Shown here: one piece after another, positions 48,440 to 56,792 of the stretch
Layout: the number at the start of each line of letters is the position of its first letter
How positions within the stretch are numbered: the first letter of the stretch is position 1
NCBI RefSeq assembly: GCF_011405515.1
Contig: NZ_AP022671.1
Coordinates: forward strand, 4,092,001-4,156,000
Direction: 5' to 3'
DNA: 64,000 nt
DNA from: Nitrospira sp. KM1
GTDB lineage: Bacteria > Nitrospirota > Nitrospiria > Nitrospirales > Nitrospiraceae
Notes under the pieces: generated by a model
Told to the model about the DNA's origin: nothing
Seen by the model: the letters and a program-made list of their open reading frames with translations, nothing else
Database searches by the model: none
Made by a program: the position numbers and the translations under genes

Positions 48440-48847
48440 ATGTCCGGTCTGGTGTCGAAATATGTGACCATCGCCCAAGCTGGTGCAACCATCCTCCGTG
48501 TCCGATGGCTGTCGAGACGAAGAAAGCTGCCGCAGGTGCTCGCGATATTGAGCCGGGCGGCGACGGTCACGGTTGGTTCCCGCACGCGTATCGACGATGC
48601 GGTGTATTACACCGATCGCTGGCTGGAATTATTCCCCTTTCAAGCCAGAGGCAATTGTTTCCCACGAACGCTGGCGCTGTACTCGATCGCCCGACGTGCG
48701 GGATATCCGGTCCAGTTTCACTGTGGCGTCCGGAGACGGGGATCAGGACTCGATGGACACGCGTGGCTGACGTTGAACGGCTCGGCATTTTATGAGATGA
48801 ACGAGGATTGGAAGTCGTTCACCGTGACATTCTCCTATACGGTTTAA
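48440..48847 (+). CDS. Lasso-peptide-type leader peptidase (B2, transglutaminase-like)
   Basis: A 135-residue protein of the transglutaminase-like family used as leader peptidase in lasso peptide biosynthesis. The catalytic Cys is in GNCFPRTLALYSIARRAGYP and the His in DGHAWLTLNG. Family length is about 140 residues, so the ATG at 48440 fits; an ATG at 48374 would add an atypical N-terminus. It is the first gene of the RiPP locus, 118 bases after purF. It probably cuts the precursor at 53212-53346 with help from the PqqD-type protein at 52746. Confidence 0.8.
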   Translation: MSGLVSKYVTIAQAGATILRVRWLSRRRKLPQVLAILSRAATVTVGSRTRIDDAVYYTDRWLELFPFQARGNCFPRTLALYSIARRAGYPVQFHCGVRRRGSGLDGHAWLTLNGSAFYEMNEDWKSFTVTFSYTV

Positions 48848-48923: not shown

Positions 48924-50744
48924 ATGAACACGATGTACGTCCTGACAGAACGGACCCGAGCGTTCGTGGGAACCCTTCGGCGGGCCCTGCATTTTGTGTG
49001 GCTGAGCAGTCCGGGTCTCACGATCAGCGGCACGCTGGTGCGGGTGATCCAAGGGCTGCTGCCGCTGGCGGTGTTGTACCTGACGAAACTCCTCATCGAT
49101 GCGGTGACCCGAGAACTGAGCGGAGGGGCGCAGGAAAAATCCTTGGCGTCGATCGCCTTCTTTCTGGGCGGCCTCGCCGGTGCCGCCGCGCTCAACGCGC
49201 TGCTGACGGTCGTCGCATCATACATTTCCCGAGTCCACTTGCAGGTGGTAACCGATCACATGCATGCCCTCCTCCAAGCGAAATCGATCGAAGTCGATCT
49301 CGAGTACTATGAGAATGCGAACTATCAGGACACATTGCACCGGGCTCAACAGGAGGCTCCGTATCGCCCCACCGCCATTCTCAATTCCCTGCTGCAGCTC
49401 GTTCAGGACGGCATCTCGCTTCTGGCAATGGCGGCTGTCCTCTGGTGGCTCCATTGGTCCGTCATTCCCGTACTTATCGTGTCATCCGCTCCGTATTTTT
49501 TCGTCCGTCTCAAGCAATCGTCCTCCCTATTCGCCTGGGAGCGTGATCGGACTTCGCTCGAGCGAAAAGCCTGGTACTTCAATTCTCTCCTGACGATGGG
49601 CGTGTCCGCCAAAGAAGTCCGGCTCTTCGGTCTTGGGCCGCGCGTGCGGCGCTGGTTCCAAGATGTCCGAAGGATCCTACGGACGGAGCGGATTGCCCTG
49701 GAGCGTCGGTGGGCGTTGGCCAACTTGGCCGCCCACATGATCGGAGTGATCGGTGTTTTCGGTCTGTACAGTTTCGTGGCATTGCGGACGGTTCAGGGTA
49801 CCCTGACGGTCGGAGACCTCGTGATGTACTTTCAGGCCGTTCAGCGGGCTTCGACTTTCCTCGAAGGATTGGGGTGGGGGCTGTCAGGACTCTACGAAAG
49901 CAATCTGTTCCTGTCGGCGCTCGATGACTTCATGGCTGTCAAGTCACGCCTGCCACTGGCATCGAACCCCGTGAGGTTCCCGGCTCCCATTCGAACCGGG
50001 TTGGTGTTTGAGAAGGTATCATTTCAATACCCGGAGGATGACAGGCTCGTGCTCCGGGACTTCACCTTGTCGATCGCCCCGGGCGAACACGTTGCGCTCG
50101 TCGGAGCGAACGGAGCGGGGAAGACGACGTTGGTCAAATTGCTCTGTCGACTATACGATCCGACGGCCGGCAGGATTACGATCGACGGCGTCGATATTCG
50201 TGACTATGCCATCGACAGCGTGCGCGGAGCCGTCAGCGGAATTTTTCAGGACTTTGGAAGATTTCAGCTGTCCGCCAAAGACAATATCGAGTTGAGCGTG
50301 ACCGCGGGGAACTCGGATTTGGCCGCTGTCATGAGTGCGGCAAGGCAAGCGGGGATTCACGATGTCATTGAACGGTTGCCGCAGGGGTATGACTCACAGC
50401 TGGGTAGGAATTTCGACGGCGGACATGAGCTCAGCATCGGGGAGTGGCAAAAGGTGGCGCTTGCCCGAGCCGTGCTGCGCGAATCGCAGATCCTCATTCT
50501 CGATGAGCCGACCAGCGCCATGGATGCCAAGGCGGAGGCTGAGTTGTTTGAACGGTTCCACGAACTGGCTCGCGGGCGCATGGCGCTGCTCATCAGTCAT
50601 CGCCTCTCGACCGTCAAGATGGCCGACCGGATTTACGTCATCGACAACGGAGGAATTGTCGAACAGGGCACCCATGACGAGTTGATACAGCTTCAAGGCT
50701 TGTATGCGACGTTGTTTCTGACCCAGGCCCGGTATTACCAGTAG
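48924..50744 (+). CDS. ABC exporter (fused membrane and ATPase domains) of the RiPP locus
   Basis: A 606-residue half-transporter that should work as a homodimer. Six membrane helices occupy residues 20-310; the ATPase domain has Walker A GANGAGKTTL, the signature LSIGEWQKVALARAV and Walker B ILILDEPTSAMDA. The signature is LSIGE rather than LSGGQ. There is no N-terminal C39 peptidase domain, consistent with a separate leader peptidase (B2). It corresponds to the D protein of lasso clusters and would export the mature peptide. Confidence 0.88.
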   Translation: MNTMYVLTERTRAFVGTLRRALHFVWLSSPGLTISGTLVRVIQGLLPLAVLYLTKLLIDAVTRELSGGAQEKSLASIAFFLGGLAGAAALNALLTVVASYISRVHLQVVTDHMHALLQAKSIEVDLEYYENANYQDTLHRAQQEAPYRPTAILNSLLQLVQDGISLLAMAAVLWWLHWSVIPVLIVSSAPYFFVRLKQSSSLFAWERDRTSLERKAWYFNSLLTMGVSAKEVRLFGLGPRVRRWFQDVRRILRTERIALERRWALANLAAHMIGVIGVFGLYSFVALRTVQGTLTVGDLVMYFQAVQRASTFLEGLGWGLSGLYESNLFLSALDDFMAVKSRLPLASNPVRFPAPIRTGLVFEKVSFQYPEDDRLVLRDFTLSIAPGEHVALVGANGAGKTTLVKLLCRLYDPTAGRITIDGVDIRDYAIDSVRGAVSGIFQDFGRFQLSAKDNIELSVTAGNSDLAAVMSAARQAGIHDVIERLPQGYDSQLGRNFDGGHELSIGEWQKVALARAVLRESQILILDEPTSAMDAKAEAELFERFHELARGRMALLISHRLSTVKMADRIYVIDNGGIVEQGTHDELIQLQGLYATLFLTQARYYQ

Positions 50745-50866: not shown

Positions 50867-51883
50867 ATGGCGTTTTGCCGGAGACACCTTCCCGTGATCC
50901 TCATTCTCGCCGACACAACAGATCCATGGGCAACGCTGCTGTATCGGGAACTGCGTCATAGCGCCGCAACGGTTGTTTGGATTCCCCCGGCACAGCTTCT
51001 GGAACGGGTGCGGCTGAACTGGTCGGTCCAGTCGAAACGCGGCATTCCCACCGGGTTTCTCAGTATCGATGACACAACGGTGCCGCTTTGCGAACTCACG
51101 GGAGTCTTCGCACAAACTCCGTTCACCCTTTCTGTTGACCCAGAGGGATTGGATCCGAACGATCGAGAATACGTGACAAAGGAGGCCACGGCGGCCTGGC
51201 TGGGATTGCTCAACGCGTTACCCTGTCCTGTCATGAACAGGCCTCTGCCGGGAGGCCGCCCGACCATTCTTTCCGGTCATTCCATCCTGGCAGGTCTCGT
51301 GGCTGAACACGGATTTGAGCTTCCGCCCTCCTTGTACACGATGAGCAAGGATGATGCGGTACACCGCTTTGCCGTCTGGAAGGGCGCCGTCTATCTCAAG
51401 CCGGTGGGTTCTCACGAGGCCGGGATCTACCTGCAGCCGCAGGACGGTGTCGAGCAGATCAAGCGTGTACTGGAGCACCAGGCCGTCACGATGCAGCAGG
51501 TGCCGGACGGTCGGAGGGTCACGGTGTATGTAGTCGGCGGCAATGCTGCGGCCACGTGCGTTCATTCCGATGACTGCTCTGGCACAGACTTCGCCTTGTC
51601 TCCGGTCCCGGCGGAATCCTGTACGAAGTTGACCCGTGCGCTGGGTCTGTCATTCGCGGAGTGCCACCTTGTTGTCACGTCCGGCAGGACGTGCTGCCTG
51701 GATATCAGTAGTACTCCCGCCTATTGGCGCTGCCCGCGAGAAGTGCGGCAGCGGTTGATTTCCCGGCTTGCCGATGGTTTGTCCGAACCGAGGAGCTTGT
51801 TGCTCGATGATTCTCTTGATGGGCTCCATGGCCGATCCGATACTCGCGAACACCTGTGCCAGACTCGCAGCCCGGAATGTTGA
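50867..51883 (+). CDS. Degenerate ATP-grasp-like protein of the RiPP locus
   Basis: A 338-residue protein resembling its downstream neighbour in layout: an N-terminal pre-ATP-grasp domain, then PVMNRPLPGGRPT, GFELPPSLYTMSKDDAV, GAVYLKPVGSHEAG and RRVTVYVVGGNAAATC. The usual metal-binding E-V-N near the C-terminus is replaced by CCLDISSTPAYW, so catalytic activity is doubtful. The last 25 codons overlap the next gene in another frame, and that tail has poor composition. It may be a binding partner or pseudoenzyme for the next protein. Assignment to ATP-grasp is moderate. Confidence 0.65.
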   Translation: MAFCRRHLPVILILADTTDPWATLLYRELRHSAATVVWIPPAQLLERVRLNWSVQSKRGIPTGFLSIDDTTVPLCELTGVFAQTPFTLSVDPEGLDPNDREYVTKEATAAWLGLLNALPCPVMNRPLPGGRPTILSGHSILAGLVAEHGFELPPSLYTMSKDDAVHRFAVWKGAVYLKPVGSHEAGIYLQPQDGVEQIKRVLEHQAVTMQQVPDGRRVTVYVVGGNAAATCVHSDDCSGTDFALSPVPAESCTKLTRALGLSFAECHLVVTSGRTCCLDISSTPAYWRCPREVRQRLISRLADGLSEPRSLLLDDSLDGLHGRSDTREHLCQTRSPEC

Positions 51884-52706
51884 ACTGTTGCTGATCGATC
51901 CGGACGCCGAAGGCGACGACTTGGAGATGATGTGGTCGATGGATCCGGGGTGTCCGGTGAACTGCCTGCAAATCGGAAACCGTACAATCGGCATCTCTGA
52001 TATCGAGGCCGTCTATTTGCGGGGAATGGGCGGCCGGATGCCCCGAACCGTCAATGAACGGATGAGGCTTACCTGTTTATGGGAATTCGTAGACCGGCTG
52101 CCGGCATTGGTGGTGAATCCCAGACAGGCATCGCATACCAACATGTCCAAGCCGTACCAGCTGAGGCTCATTGCCTCGTACGGGTTCCAGATCCCCGAGA
52201 CACTCATCACGATGGAACCGAACGAGGTCCGGGCGTTCTATCACGAGTACAACGGACGCGTGATTTATAAGTCCATCAGTGCGGAACGCTCGATCGTGAA
52301 AACTCTTACGACGGACGACTTCTCCAGACTCGACCGGATTCGACATTGCCCGATCCAACTTCAGGAAATGATTCCCGGCTTCGATATTCGGGTCCATACC
52401 GTGGGAGACCGCGTGTTTGCCACCGAAATTTGCTCCGGAGGTACGGACTACCGTTACGCCGAACGTGAAAATCTGACACGGTCGATGCGGGCGATGGAAC
52501 TCGAAGCCTCCGTGGAGGCGCAATGTTTGAAAATGGCGAAAGGGTTGGGACTGAGCCTGAGCGGGATCGATCTTCGACGCACTTCCGACGGGGCCTATTA
52601 CTGTTTTGAGGTCAATACCAGCCCCGGCTTCACCTTCTTCGAAAATCATACCGGCCAACGAATCGGAGACGCATTGGCCGACATGCTGTGTGCGGCGAGA
52701 GCATGA
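51807..52706 (+). CDS. ATP-grasp ligase, graspetide-type
   Basis: A 299-residue ATP-grasp enzyme resembling the ligases that crosslink graspetides (microviridin family). Landmarks are NMSKPYQLRLIASYG with GFQIPETLIT, the ATP Lys in RVIYKSIS, QLQEMIPGFDIRVHTVG, and the Mg-binding CFEVNTSPGFTFFE (E268-N270). The preferred ATG at 51807 has a GAGGAG ribosome-binding site at 51790-51795 and lies inside the previous gene. In a RiPP setting it would activate Asp/Glu side chains with ATP and join them to Lys, Ser or Thr. RimK-type glutamate ligase is the alternative. Confidence 0.8.
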   Translation: MILLMGSMADPILANTCARLAARNVELLLIDPDAEGDDLEMMWSMDPGCPVNCLQIGNRTIGISDIEAVYLRGMGGRMPRTVNERMRLTCLWEFVDRLPALVVNPRQASHTNMSKPYQLRLIASYGFQIPETLITMEPNEVRAFYHEYNGRVIYKSISAERSIVKTLTTDDFSRLDRIRHCPIQLQEMIPGFDIRVHTVGDRVFATEICSGGTDYRYAERENLTRSMRAMELEASVEAQCLKMAKGLGLSLSGIDLRRTSDGAYYCFEVNTSPGFTFFENHTGQRIGDALADMLCAARA

Positions 52707-52745
52707 ACATGGGTGCGAACGTGCGGAAAAGGAGGAAGCAGCACA

Positions 52746-53204
52746 ATGGATCGACAGCCGTTTATCACTGCCGATTTGAGGCCGGATATGACCGTCGACA
52801 GCGGGCTTCACCGGTCTGCGATACGTGAAAGCGCCACGACTGTTCAACTGGCCGATGCGGCCGCCGCGATTCTCTCCGAGGAAGAGCTCCGCCAGGTGGA
52901 CCGCGGTCGTCCGGGCCGGACGGAGGACATCATGGCCACGGTGCCTCAGCCGAATTCCAACGTGCAGGGGACGACGTTGGACGAAGAAACGGTCCTGCTG
53001 GATCTCAGCACCGGTCGTTACTACACACTCAATCGGGTGGGATCCGCCATCTGGCACGATTGCAACGGTGTGAATTCCCTGCGGGACATCCAGGAACGTC
53101 TTAGCTCGAGATTTGAAGCCCCGCTGGAACGCATTGCCGATGATCTCCTCGCTCTCGTGACGCAGCTGAGTCATGAGGGACTTTTAACATTGGAAAGGAG
53201 GTGA
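52746..53204 (+). CDS. PqqD-type RiPP recognition element protein (B1) with N-terminal extension
   Basis: A 152-residue protein. Residues 63-152 are a PqqD-like winged-helix domain (ETVLLDLSTGRYYTLNRVG, SAIWHDCNG, LRDIQERLSSRFEAPLERIA), the domain that binds leader peptides. The first 62 residues are an unassigned extension. Two starts are credible: ATG 52746 (AAAGGAGGAA) and ATG 52932 (GGAGGA), the latter giving the usual B1 length of about 90 residues. It ends 8 bases before the precursor gene. Confidence 0.8.
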   Translation: MDRQPFITADLRPDMTVDSGLHRSAIRESATTVQLADAAAAILSEEELRQVDRGRPGRTEDIMATVPQPNSNVQGTTLDEETVLLDLSTGRYYTLNRVGSAIWHDCNGVNSLRDIQERLSSRFEAPLERIADDLLALVTQLSHEGLLTLERR

Positions 53205-53211
53205 ATGAAGA

Positions 53212-53346
53212 ATGGAATCTCACAAGAAAGAGACCTACAGCGAGCCTGTGTTGACTGCTCATGAACTCCTGCGCGATATCACAGGCCAGAAGTATCGGGA
53301 GAAGGAAAGAGACAAGTTCAGCGACAAGAGCGGCGTCGAGAACTAG
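53212..53346 (+). CDS. Candidate RiPP precursor peptide
   Basis: A 44-residue peptide, too short for routine gene calling. An AAAGGAGGTGA ribosome-binding site lies nine bases before the ATG. Residues 9-14 are YSEPVL, the YxxPxL motif of lasso-type leaders that B1 proteins bind, followed by HELLRDIT with a Thr at 24, as expected near the leader end. The likely core (from about residue 25-26) is GQKYREKERDKF then SDKSGVEN: no Cys, many Lys, Asp, Glu and two Ser. Such residues could be crosslinked by the ATP-grasp enzyme, and Ser is a possible target of the kinase that follows. It is the only small gene with these features in the locus. Confidence 0.72.
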   Translation: MESHKKETYSEPVLTAHELLRDITGQKYREKERDKFSDKSGVEN

Positions 53347-53406: not shown

Positions 53407-53450
53407 CCTGAAGTCGCGGCGGGTGTGAGATGTAACCAGTGAGGCAACCG

Positions 53451-54485
53451 ATGGGCTCAATCACCGATGCGCGTACGTATCGATTTTGTCTGCACGGAGT
53501 GGATCTTCACTACGAGACCTCCATTCCCTCGCTGGCGGCTCCCGTGCTCTCCTTCCTTCGCCATTTTCATACGCCGCCGGTATCTGGCGGTGCGTCGCTG
53601 ACGATTCGGTTCCAAGAGGCGAAGAGCCGCGAGCAGATTCCTATCAGAGCATCCGACTCTGCAAAGCTCCTGTTTTCCGGTACCAGACCGTCCATGGGAG
53701 ATTCGCTGCGATCGATTTGGCGCTGCGATGTCAAGCAGGACGGTTACCTGCTCATCGCGGATTTCCACGAGCAGGGCTTGCTGGCCATTGATGGACCGGC
53801 CGGGACGGTGGAGGGGTATTTCGTAAAGCCGGATGCCATGCATGCGGACGTCTGTACCAGCTTTTTCCATTACGCGCTGACCGAGTTGCTCAAGCGCCGC
53901 GATCTCTTTACGGTGCACGCGACGGCTCTGGAATATGGAGGCCGGGGCGTCCTGATTCCCGGATACAGCGGGCAGGGTAAAACGACGTCGTTCCTGTCGC
54001 TCCTCCGTGCAGGCTATCGATACCTTTCGGATGACTACCCGTTACTCCGGGACCGTGGAACGCACATGGAATTGTTGGCATTTCCAATGAAGATCGATGT
54101 GACGGATCGTACGGTTACCATGTTCCCTGAGCTGCACAATGCTCCCCCAGGCGTGCTGCATCAGGGGATCTGCAAAAAGTACTTTCAGGTGGAAGACCTG
54201 TACGCGAATTCGATCGGCCAATCCTGCACGCCGGCCATGATTCTGTTCCCTCACGTCGTCGATGTGCCCCACAGCTGCCTGGAACCGCTTCCGAGGAGCC
54301 GTGCGCTCGAGGCGATCATGCCGCAGGCTCTGTTGGTCTATGACAAGGACGTTGCCGTTCGGGAATTCAAGGCGCTGTCTCATTTAGTCGAACAAGCCGA
54401 TTGCTATCGGCTGCATTTCGGCCGTGACGTACTCGATTTGCCGAAATTGATTACCCCGCTATTAGAGATGCGGCGGAGCGCGTAA
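53451..54485 (+). CDS. HPr kinase-like protein of the RiPP locus
   Basis: A protein of about 344 residues with an HPrK-type fold. The P-loop is VLIPGYSGQGKTTSFLSLL, followed by YRYLSDDYPLLR (the second acidic motif) and a C-terminal domain. HPr kinase-like enzymes in some lasso clusters (paeninodin type) phosphorylate a C-terminal Ser of the precursor. The ATG at 53451 is chosen over an in-frame GTG at 53439; neither has a strong ribosome-binding site. The target here is unknown. Confidence 0.78.
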   Translation: MGSITDARTYRFCLHGVDLHYETSIPSLAAPVLSFLRHFHTPPVSGGASLTIRFQEAKSREQIPIRASDSAKLLFSGTRPSMGDSLRSIWRCDVKQDGYLLIADFHEQGLLAIDGPAGTVEGYFVKPDAMHADVCTSFFHYALTELLKRRDLFTVHATALEYGGRGVLIPGYSGQGKTTSFLSLLRAGYRYLSDDYPLLRDRGTHMELLAFPMKIDVTDRTVTMFPELHNAPPGVLHQGICKKYFQVEDLYANSIGQSCTPAMILFPHVVDVPHSCLEPLPRSRALEAIMPQALLVYDKDVAVREFKALSHLVEQADCYRLHFGRDVLDLPKLITPLLEMRRSA

Positions 54486-54492
54486 CGGCCTC

Positions 54493-55530
54493 ATGACAAT
54501 AGACGGCGTTATCTGGGCTCTCAAGAAAATCGCGGAGTACTCGCTCGTGTCGGTTTCGTCCTGGGACGCGTTTTTCACCGGCATCGGGAGGGCGGCCCGG
54601 ACGTTTACAGACCTGGAAAGCGGAATGGCCTGGCCCTATCTCCTCGCAAGCTTCACGATTGCCGCCGGCGTGTTCATGTACGCACGTCGGCGAGGTGAAG
54701 CAAAGCCAGGCACGTTTGTGTCGTTCTTATTCCCGCGCGAGGTCTACGGGCATACGTCCGCTGCGCTCGATTACCAGTTCTACGCGATCAACCTGGTTCT
54801 CAAGTTCCTGTTCTGGGTTCCGATCATGACAGGCATGGGCATGATCGGCTACAAGGCAATGGCTGCCATCCTCGTTGAATGGATGAAATGGGAGCCGCCA
54901 GCGCGGTTGTCGACGGGGCAAGCACTCGGCGCCGCCTTTGGGTTGTTTGTCCTGTATGACTTCGTCAATTACTGCAGCCATGTTCTCTTTCATAAAATTC
55001 CGGTCCTGTGGGCTTTTCACGAGGTCCATCATTCGGCACAGGTGATGACGCCAATCACCGCGTTCCGGGCGCATCCCATGGAATTATTATTCCCTGCGCT
55101 GCTGCAGATGCCGGTGATCGGATTCGCGGCGGTTTTCTACCAGAACGTGGCGCCGCGTGATTTGGAGGTCGATACGGTTTTTGGAATCGGTCTCTTCACA
55201 TTCGCATTCGGCCTGCTCGGACACCATTTGCAGCATTCACACATCTGGCTGTCGTTTGGGCCGATCCTAAGCCGTCTGTACATCAGTCCTGCCCAGCATC
55301 AGATCCATCACAGCGTCGATGCGCGGCATCGGAACAGGAACTTCGGGGTGAAATTCGCCATATGGGACACGCTATTCGGGACGCTCTATGTCCCACCGGG
55401 TCGTGAGACGATTCAACTGGGTGTGCCGAATCAGAAAACAGTGGTATTCACGTCCGTTACACGGATCTACTTTCTTCCATTCGTCAGAGTCTGGACCTCG
55501 TTCAGAGGTGGTCAGGCGGGAAGAATCTGA
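54493..55530 (+). CDS. Membrane di-iron hydroxylase (sterol desaturase/fatty acid hydroxylase superfamily)
   Basis: A 345-residue membrane enzyme. Three His clusters are visible: HVLFHKIP (HX3H), HEVHHSAQ (HX2HH), and HHLQHSHIW with HQIHHSVDARH further on, which together bind a di-iron centre. About five membrane helices surround them. Family members hydroxylate or desaturate lipid C-H bonds. It starts 7 bases after the kinase gene and shares one base with the next gene, so it belongs to the locus; peptide or lipid modification are both possible. Confidence 0.82.
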   Translation: MTIDGVIWALKKIAEYSLVSVSSWDAFFTGIGRAARTFTDLESGMAWPYLLASFTIAAGVFMYARRRGEAKPGTFVSFLFPREVYGHTSAALDYQFYAINLVLKFLFWVPIMTGMGMIGYKAMAAILVEWMKWEPPARLSTGQALGAAFGLFVLYDFVNYCSHVLFHKIPVLWAFHEVHHSAQVMTPITAFRAHPMELLFPALLQMPVIGFAAVFYQNVAPRDLEVDTVFGIGLFTFAFGLLGHHLQHSHIWLSFGPILSRLYISPAQHQIHHSVDARHRNRNFGVKFAIWDTLFGTLYVPPGRETIQLGVPNQKTVVFTSVTRIYFLPFVRVWTSFRGGQAGRI

Positions 55531-56792
55531 TGCCTGTTCAATCCGGCAGGGCCGCAATGCGCAGCGCGAGCACGAAATCGAAGGATTGTGACATCGGGCA
55601 TGTGACCCAAGAGGCCAGGCTTTTGCTTGCGTGCTCGCGAACGTCAATGAGCGATGCCGCGCGGTCGCAGATCTTGAATTTGGCGACTACGATTGACAGC
55701 TGGCGGGCGGTCGTTGAGCTGGCCCGTTATCATGGAGTCGCACCGCTCATGTACCGCGCACTTCGTCTGGTCTGTCCGGACCTCGTTCCTAAAGAACCGC
55801 TGGATGCATTGAGAAGTTTAACCCAGGCGGGGGCGTTGTTGAACCGATCGCTCGCGCAGGAGTTGATTCACCTGTGCCAGGCGTTTGACGAGCAGAGCGT
55901 CCCCGTCATCCCGTTTAAGGGAGCGACGTTGGCGGTGGCGGCCTATGGCGATCTCGCCCTTCGTGACTTTGACGATCTGGATTTCATCGTGCCGAAGGAG
56001 CGCGCGTCGGATGCGCAACAGGTCTTGTGGGCGCAGGGGTATCGTCCCCGGGACCGCTCGCATGGTCCAATGCATGCCGAGGAGCCGTATCATGTCTTTG
56101 TGAAGAAGCAGAGCTTGTTGCGAATCGACCTGCAATGGACCATGGCGCACGAACGGTTCTCGTTTCGGCTCGACCGGCCTGAAATCTGGGACCATCTGTT
56201 GCCTGTTTCAATCGGCGGCGTTCAGATCCGTGCCCTCGCGCCTGAGGAATTGCTGATCGTGTTATGTGTCCACGGTTCGAAGCACGCCTGGGAACAGCTC
56301 AAATGGGTCGCCGACGTATCCGAATTGCTCCGCTCTCATCGGGTGGATTGGAGGCGGGTGTTTGCCGTGGCCAAGAAATGGAAATGCCGCCGGATGTTGG
56401 TGCTCGGACTGATGGTGGCGTATCGATTATTGGACGCTCCTCTTCCTGGTTCGGTTGTCGCTGGCCTTGCCCGCGAGGGCGAAGTGGCTGCGCTGGCGGG
56501 ACGGATGCCCAAGAGCCTACTGACACGTCCGCAGGAAGGCATTGATGACCAGGACAACGCCGCACTGTATCTGTCTCTGAAGGATTCCCGGTGGAATCGA
56601 TGGAATTTCGGATTAACCCTGCTCCGTGACGACCATCCTGTCGTGCATGATCCACCCGCTTGGCTTCGTGCAGGCTCCTCACTGACCATCTTGGCGGGGA
56701 TATTCCAGCCGCTGCGCCGATGTGCGGCGCAGTCCCGACATGTCAAGCGACTGCTGAGAGCCGTAGGGAGACTTCATGAGCATGCCCCGTAA
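55530..56792 (+). CDS. Nucleotidyltransferase-family protein of the RiPP locus
   Basis: A 420-residue protein with a minimal nucleotidyltransferase core: PVIPFKGATLAVAAYGDL followed by RDFDDLDFIVPKE (the D-x-D acids) and DLQWTMAHERFSF. The second half (RALAPEELLIVLCVHGSKHAWEQL) is helical. Proteins of this family are common companions of lasso and related RiPP clusters, with unknown chemistry. It shares one base (TGATG) with the hydroxylase stop. Confidence 0.8.
   Translation: MPVQSGRAAMRSASTKSKDCDIGHVTQEARLLLACSRTSMSDAARSQILNLATTIDSWRAVVELARYHGVAPLMYRALRLVCPDLVPKEPLDALRSLTQAGALLNRSLAQELIHLCQAFDEQSVPVIPFKGATLAVAAYGDLALRDFDDLDFIVPKERASDAQQVLWAQGYRPRDRSHGPMHAEEPYHVFVKKQSLLRIDLQWTMAHERFSFRLDRPEIWDHLLPVSIGGVQIRALAPEELLIVLCVHGSKHAWEQLKWVADVSELLRSHRVDWRRVFAVAKKWKCRRMLVLGLMVAYRLLDAPLPGSVVAGLAREGEVAALAGRMPKSLLTRPQEGIDDQDNAALYLSLKDSRWNRWNFGLTLLRDDHPVVHDPPAWLRAGSSLTILAGIFQPLRRCAAQSRHVKRLLRAVGRLHEHAP

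Follow-up and report, generated by a model that had tools for sequence, protein, structure and literature searches.

Lasso peptides and graspetides count as two distinct classes of RiPP. They have been joined artificially only recently, by chemists (PMC13003496). Among lasso systems, those closest to the locus described here are split-B clusters with a kinase and a nucleotidyltransferase, such as the clusters of paeninodin and pseudomycoidin; the HprK homologues known from lasso systems have a C-terminal Ser as their target (PMC8498205). Among graspetide systems, the comparison is with the synthetases MdnB and MdnC (microviridin), PsnB (plesiocin), CdnC and PruB. Graspetide synthetases are switched on by a short motif in the leader, either PFFARFL or Phhx(1,2)h; inactive ATP-grasps adjoining active ones have been noted before, and in “branch 8” loci a truncated inactive ATP-grasp stands beside an active one with a peptidase, no precursor having been found there (PMC8939145). 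RPFG is another short leader motif recognised by graspetide ligases (PMC13003496). A partner-dependent graspetide ligase has been demonstrated; rosaritide MirB/MirC is partner-protein-dependent, with a MirC N-domain that weakly resembles an RRE, and graspetide groups 33 and 39 also carry a transglutaminase-fold protein (PMC13097080).

Our locus lies in a window of 64,000 nucleotides, the whole stretch of Nitrospira sp. KM1 DNA that was analysed (Table 1). We consider it likely that a short ORF in this locus encodes the precursor (A) for a hybrid RiPP pathway that combines lasso-type leader handling with graspetide-type cross-linking. With the paeninodin and pseudomycoidin clusters (PMC8498205) the locus shares the YxxPxL leader with Thr at -2, a PqqD-type B1, a transglutaminase-like B2, an ABC exporter, an HPr-kinase homologue and a nucleotidyltransferase. 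Unlike them, it has an ATP-grasp pair instead of an asparagine-synthetase-like lasso cyclase, its core start and ring acid are not conserved, and its kinase is distantly related, the conserved hydroxyl residue lying near the core start and not at a C-terminal Ser. GR2, the presumed active member of the ATP-grasp pair, resembles the graspetide synthetases in sequence, fold and catalytic residues, and as in graspetide systems a Lys/acid-rich core adjoins the ligase. However, the precursor here has a lasso-type leader, the PFFARFL-like motif sits on B1, the B2 protease is lasso-type, and the second ATP-grasp is degenerate.

Table 1. Features of the Nitrospira sp. KM1 locus (window coordinates).
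Feature	Position	Strand	Evidence or remark
B2-type leader protease, transglutaminase-like	48440-48847	+	NF033537 lasso_biosyn_B2 and Pfam Transglut_core3 (PF13471), both over cut-off
ABC exporter, membrane and ATPase domains	48924-50744	+	66-73% identical copies in most sister loci
GR1, graspetide-synthetase-like paralogue without catalytic residues, probable partner subunit	50867-51883	+	
GR2, ATP-grasp ligase of graspetide-synthetase kind, catalytic residues kept	51807-52706	+	PDB profile and fold matches
B1-type PqqD/RRE leader-binding protein with N-terminal extension	52746-53204	+	Pfam PqqD (PF05402) over cut-off, E 1e-16
B1 tail MDRQPFITADLRPD, proposed docking motif for the ATP-grasp ligase	52746-52787	+	FIxx[DEH]LRP
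Shine-Dalgarno AAAGGAGGTGA of precursor gene, strong	53194-53204	+	sequence; overlaps TGA stop of the PqqD gene
Precursor gene, 44 codons, ATG start	53212-53346	+	
Precursor leader MESHKKETYSEPVLTAHELLRDITG	53212-53286	+	conserved YxxP.[LV]..H..LRD[IV]T in 30 homologues, pN/pS 0.17
Precursor core QKYREKERDKFSDKSGVEN and stop	53287-53346	+	variable core
HprK-related kinase	53439-54485	+	Hpr_kinase_C, HprK_rel_A, both below cut-off
Membrane fatty-acid-hydroxylase family oxygenase, probable tailoring enzyme	54493-55530	+	Pfam PF04116, E 1e-24
Nucleotidyltransferase NTP_transf_5	55530-56792	+	Pfam PF14907, E 7e-60

The ORF is real and is a RiPP precursor. It starts with ATG, and its 44 codons and strong Shine-Dalgarno sequence are as the first-pass annotation had given them, and so are the leader motifs Y9-S-E-P-V-L14 and R21-D-I-T24. 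No family model reaches its cut-off in a profile search; the sole match is lasso_cyano, sub-threshold over residues 6-24 (E 0.011, 15.7 bits against a cut-off of 33). We searched for GR2 in 197 related genomes and read about 20 kb around each good match, and further sister loci were added from genome contigs beyond this search. Seventeen Nitrospirales loci, the one in the window included, hold GR1, GR2, a PqqD gene and at least one precursor, with 30 precursors in total; in those Nitrospira loci that were read closely, it is flanked by purF on one side and a TlpA-like gene on the other. The pattern Y..P...(L/A)(R/K)(D/E/N).T is matched by all 30 leaders, and with pS at 0.55 and pN at 0.092, pooled over 23 leaders, the frame must be translated and the leader under purifying selection. 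Several copies occur per locus, and cores diverge even between neighbouring precursors with a common leader; a conserved leader with a core that varies even among neighbours is a mark of RiPP precursors. Two observations that had been named in advance as speaking against a precursor, homologous loci lacking the ORF and conservation over its full length, were not made: 17 of 17 homologous ATP-grasp loci carry one to three such ORFs, and across the 30 homologues conservation lies in the leader while the core is variable. Since same-leader orthologues adjoin each of the other 16 loci that have these ATP-grasp genes, the ORF is far beyond chance.

Judged by sequence, the leader, B1 and B2 are lasso-type. 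The B2 ORF is listed from 48239 and its homologues begin at about 48440; Cys140, His174 and Glu186 (numbering of the long ORF) are invariant in 13 homologues. McjB has Asp at position 12 past the catalytic His, a position at which the B2 proteins have an invariant Glu. The B1 start was re-set to the ATG at 52746, preceded by AGGAGG at 52730-52735, and lasso PqqD models match B1 below threshold. The genome, a single contig of 4.5 Mb, encodes one B2 and two PqqD-type genes, the second PqqD-domain gene lying elsewhere (G000:C1:2520899-2521087). No peptidase domain was matched in the ABC exporter. Counting against our model, the 19 kb that were read at locus L042 contain neither a B2 nor an ABC gene.

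What sets these loci apart from lasso clusters is the ATP-grasp pair. A PDB profile search with 13 GR2 sequences found PsnB first (3.5e-33), then AMdnB, CdnC, MdnC, PruB and MdnB, with RimK-type ligases next after the graspetide synthetases (1e-8). The AlphaFold2 model of GR2 (pLDDT 83) has the same neighbours in the fold search (PsnB at E 1e-22), RimK-type ligases again coming next. The TIGR04187, MvdC and MvdD models give hits in the cluster, all below their curated cut-offs. The GR2 residues K155, E187, D255, E268 and N270 are invariant and, by alignment, correspond to the ATP/Mg site expected of ATP-grasp enzymes. By sequence and fold, GR2 is a ligase of the graspetide-synthetase family and the predicted cross-linker. 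GR1 matches TIGR04187 sub-threshold, aligns to GR2 over its whole length in a profile alignment (E 7e-28), and its model (pLDDT 79) has the same fold, with MdnC, AMdnB and PsnB as best PDB matches. At the positions of GR2 E187, D255, E268 and N270, GR1 has other residues, which vary among its homologues, and it is therefore probably an inactive partner. The two genes overlap by 77 bases (51807-51883) in different frames, an overlap kept in homologues, and the overlapping GR1 tail is predicted to be disordered.

The composition of the core tracks the ligase. The first-pass annotation had described the stretch behind the leader as consisting almost entirely of Lys, Arg, Glu, Asp and Ser; the core is indeed rich in these, but after Thr-Gly they make up 13 of its 19 residues, so that the description is overstated. 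In loci with GR1 and GR2 (GR+ loci) the cores have, as graspetide cores do, recurring donors (Lys/Ser/Thr) and acceptors (Asp/Glu). K-x-x-[D/E] occurs in 26 of 30 GR+ cores against 10.4 expected when each core is shuffled, and K-x-x-[D/E]-K in 20 of 30 against 1.5; these counts are to be read as associations and not as independent trials, since the sequences are related. The shorter motif is found in none of 21 cores from loci without the GR genes (GR-less) and in 2 of 17 cores of a second kind in GR+ loci, and KYxEK and K-x-x-[DE]-K recur only beside GR genes. K/D/E content differs between GR and GR-less cores (P 1e-7, rank test on homologues that are not independent). Four GR+ cores have no K-x-x-[D/E], some use Cys pairs, and Lys/acid spacing varies, all of which counts against the model. 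The earlier suggestion that the core suits side-chain cross-linking and not a lasso cyclase finds support here, as a graspetide-synthetase-like ligase adjoins it, no lasso cyclase does, and K-x-x-[D/E] is enriched only beside the ligase.

An HprK-related gene accompanies nearly all loci, GR+ and GR-less alike. The window's protein scores 55.8 bits against TIGR04352 and 27.9 against TIGR04355, short of the NCBIfam cut-off of 200 for each, and the Walker A motif GxSGxGKTT is conserved. Ser or Tyr stands four or five residues past the leader Thr (T+4/T+5) in 66 of 68 cores of all kinds, against 16.8 expected, and phosphorylation there by the HprK-like protein is a plausible step common to all loci. 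It would differ from that by known HprK homologues, which use the C-terminal Ser. The fatty-acid-hydroxylase family oxygenase is, within the locus family, confined to GR+ loci. Oxygenases differ by lineage (fatty-acid-hydroxylase family in Nitrospira, a GMC oxidoreductase in L041 and L066, a 2OG-Fe(II) oxygenase in L043), which suggests that the clusters have an exchangeable oxidative tailoring slot; in L066 a Gluconate_2-dh3 gene accompanies the GMC oxidoreductase.

GR-less loci occur at the same chromosomal site with the same leader, in the order B2-PqqD-precursor-HprK-NTP5 and with cores such as AIQLSRVLDRTPI. They are widespread at the purF-tlpA site (L077-L079, L082-L083, L085-L088 and L091, with B2, PqqD, an HprK-like gene, NTP_transf_5 and a short precursor). 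In this set the core start is near-constant (AIQLSRV...), no macrocyclase was found near these loci, and they make up a cyclase-free lasso-leader system. The same site holds an HprK-like gene alone, or HprK with a divergent PqqD, in L074, L076 and L080 and in L081 and L089, where no B2 or precursor was found; these are possible decay remnants. The GR+ loci L034-L037, L039, L062, L064 and L065 also hold a second precursor kind next to a short, separate PqqD; its cores, for example AGQSGYNCDDNKKRRWWNND and AGQSGYVCRECEK, often contain Cys.

Could the ORF simply be an ordinary lasso precursor, with its cyclase encoded at another site of the genome? The YxxPxL...T leader, B1, B2, the HprK-like kinase, the nucleotidyltransferase and the ABC gene are all known from lasso clusters, and Asp or Glu stands at 7-9 in 19 of 30 cores if the cut falls after Thr-x. 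However, in the 13 genomes searched no PF00733 lasso cyclase was found in the window's cluster or its sister clusters, nor did seven further genomes show one next to their GR-less clusters. The genomes searched do hold PF00733 proteins, unlinked to the clusters; in Nitrospira sp. KM1 itself the match nearest to the window is about 0.28 Mb off, at 4,439,330, and the strong matches are ORFs of 640-800 aa, unlinked to B1/B2. Residue 1 after a Thr-x cut varies among G, Q, T, L, S, N, K, F and V, being one of the last eight in 17 of 30 cores; just 10 of 30 combine G/A/S/C first with Asp/Glu at 7-9, and 5 of 30 if the cut falls after Thr. The first-pass annotation had pointed out that a cut after Thr would give Gly1 and Glu at position 8; the arithmetic is right, but Glu8 is not conserved, and the proposed ring finds no support in the homologues, with Asp/Glu at 7-9 in just 5 of 30 cores cut in this way. 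A lasso reading also leaves GR1, GR2 and the B1 tail unexplained. With no PF00733 in the locus and neither core residue 1 nor the acid at 7-9 conserved, the product is not a lasso peptide as far as these data go, and we have rejected a remote cyclase as very improbable. Least credible of all is that so short an ORF, which matches no family over cut-off, encodes a small ordinary protein or regulator; the conserved leader with its variable core, the several same-leader copies per locus and the position directly behind B1 largely refute this.

A more serious alternative, though still an unlikely one, is that the peptide is only phosphorylated or nucleotidylated (by HprK and NTP_transf_5) and cut, as in the GR-less loci, with GR1 and GR2 acting on another substrate or adding free amino acids to side chains in RimK fashion instead of cyclizing. 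In its favour are the GR-less loci, which share leader and gene order at the same site, the conservation of Ser/Tyr at T+4/T+5 in both kinds, and the place of RimK-type ligases as the next structural neighbours of GR2. Against it, the presence of GR is matched exactly by changes in core composition and in the B1 tail, and graspetide synthetases rank clearly ahead of RimK by both sequence and fold. The hybrid pathway remains our preferred reading.

That B1 tail offers a possible route to the ligase. All 17 GR+ loci have FIxx[D/E/H]LRP in the PqqD next to GR2, and none of the 30-odd other PqqDs examined has it, the second PqqDs of these loci included. The extension, confined to GR+ loci, reads M-[S/G/D]-RQPFIT-x-DLRPD in Nitrospira and LFIGS[E/H]LRP in distant members. 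PFITADL agrees with PFFARFL at P1, F2, hydrophobic 3 and L7. The likeness is short, and distant members have lost part of it (LFIGSHLRP, without Pro); a PDB search with the tail found nothing. The HELLRDxT part of the precursor leader is common to GR-less loci, and the leader's P-V-L, a possible Phh motif, is also present in GR-less leaders; the GR-specific PFI-type motif sits on B1. By analogy, the ligase-docking motif may lie on B1 as an adaptor, which would bind the lasso-type leader and dock the precursor onto the ligase. We suggest, tentatively and with a little less than even confidence, that the macrocyclase has its recognition sequence no longer in the precursor but on a distinct RRE adaptor, B1, which reads a generic lasso-type leader and itself carries the graspetide docking motif. 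If so, one universal leader, common to GR+ and GR-less loci, could be routed to different enzymes by swapping the adaptor.

In the pathway that we propose, the PqqD-type B1 would bind the lasso-type leader via Y9xxP12xL14, and its N-terminal tail RQPFITADLRPD would recruit GR2, the active ligase, and GR1, its probably inactive partner. GR2 would then activate core Glu/Asp side chains with ATP and join them to Lys, perhaps to Ser/Thr; the K-x-x-[D/E]-K element that recurs in the cores is the likeliest place for the predicted cross-links. Phosphorylation of the Ser or Tyr at T+4/T+5 may be the work of the HprK-like kinase. B2 would cut the leader off after Thr24-Gly25 to give QKYREKERDKFSDKSGVEN, which the ABC transporter would export and which the nucleotidyltransferase and the membrane oxygenase may decorate. 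These reactions, their order and the docking role of the tail are all proposals.

Outside the Nitrospirales, two Verrucomicrobiota loci (L069, L070) and an Amycolatopsis fragment (L071) with GR2 relatives have no PqqD, B2 or precursor (two peptide patterns scanned), so the hybrid looks confined to Nitrospirales at the search sensitivity used. No B1, B2 or precursor was found with the more distant GR2 relatives L044-L052, and no GR2 relative was confirmed in viral contigs. In L044, L045, L046 and L048, distant GR1/GR2-like pairs without PqqD, B2 or precursor lie downstream of similar proteins of about 600 aa, one of which, when scanned, is an M6 (immune inhibitor A) peptidase. These pairs resemble “branch 8” (PMC8939145), and several GR2 relatives adjoin an M6 peptidase or other hydrolases; the Nitrospira loci share with “branch 8” the pairing of a degenerate with an active ATP-grasp, a likeness in gene arrangement, and unlike it they have a precursor, B1 and B2. 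As in rosaritide MirB/MirC, the Nitrospira ligase is expected to need a partner protein; by contrast, the partner here would be a true PqqD-family B1 plus a pseudo-ATP-grasp (PMC13097080). Neither a lasso-leader graspetide nor a RiPP of this kind from Nitrospira or other nitrite-oxidizing bacteria was found in the literature searched, though the Nitrospira loci might overlap groups 33/39 (PMC13097080).

The Nitrospira loci look like a natural junction, in which the lasso leader, adaptor and protease are kept and a graspetide ligase replaces the lasso cyclase. With lasso-type tagging and probable graspetide-type cross-linking in one cluster, two supposedly separate pathways appear to be joined in nature. 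Should B1 prove to be an adaptor whose docking tail can be transferred, it would provide a simple rule for steering one leader to different macrocyclases. The system would also supply a substrate for an ATP-grasp pair of one active and one inactive member, and would give nitrite-oxidizing bacteria a peptide product.
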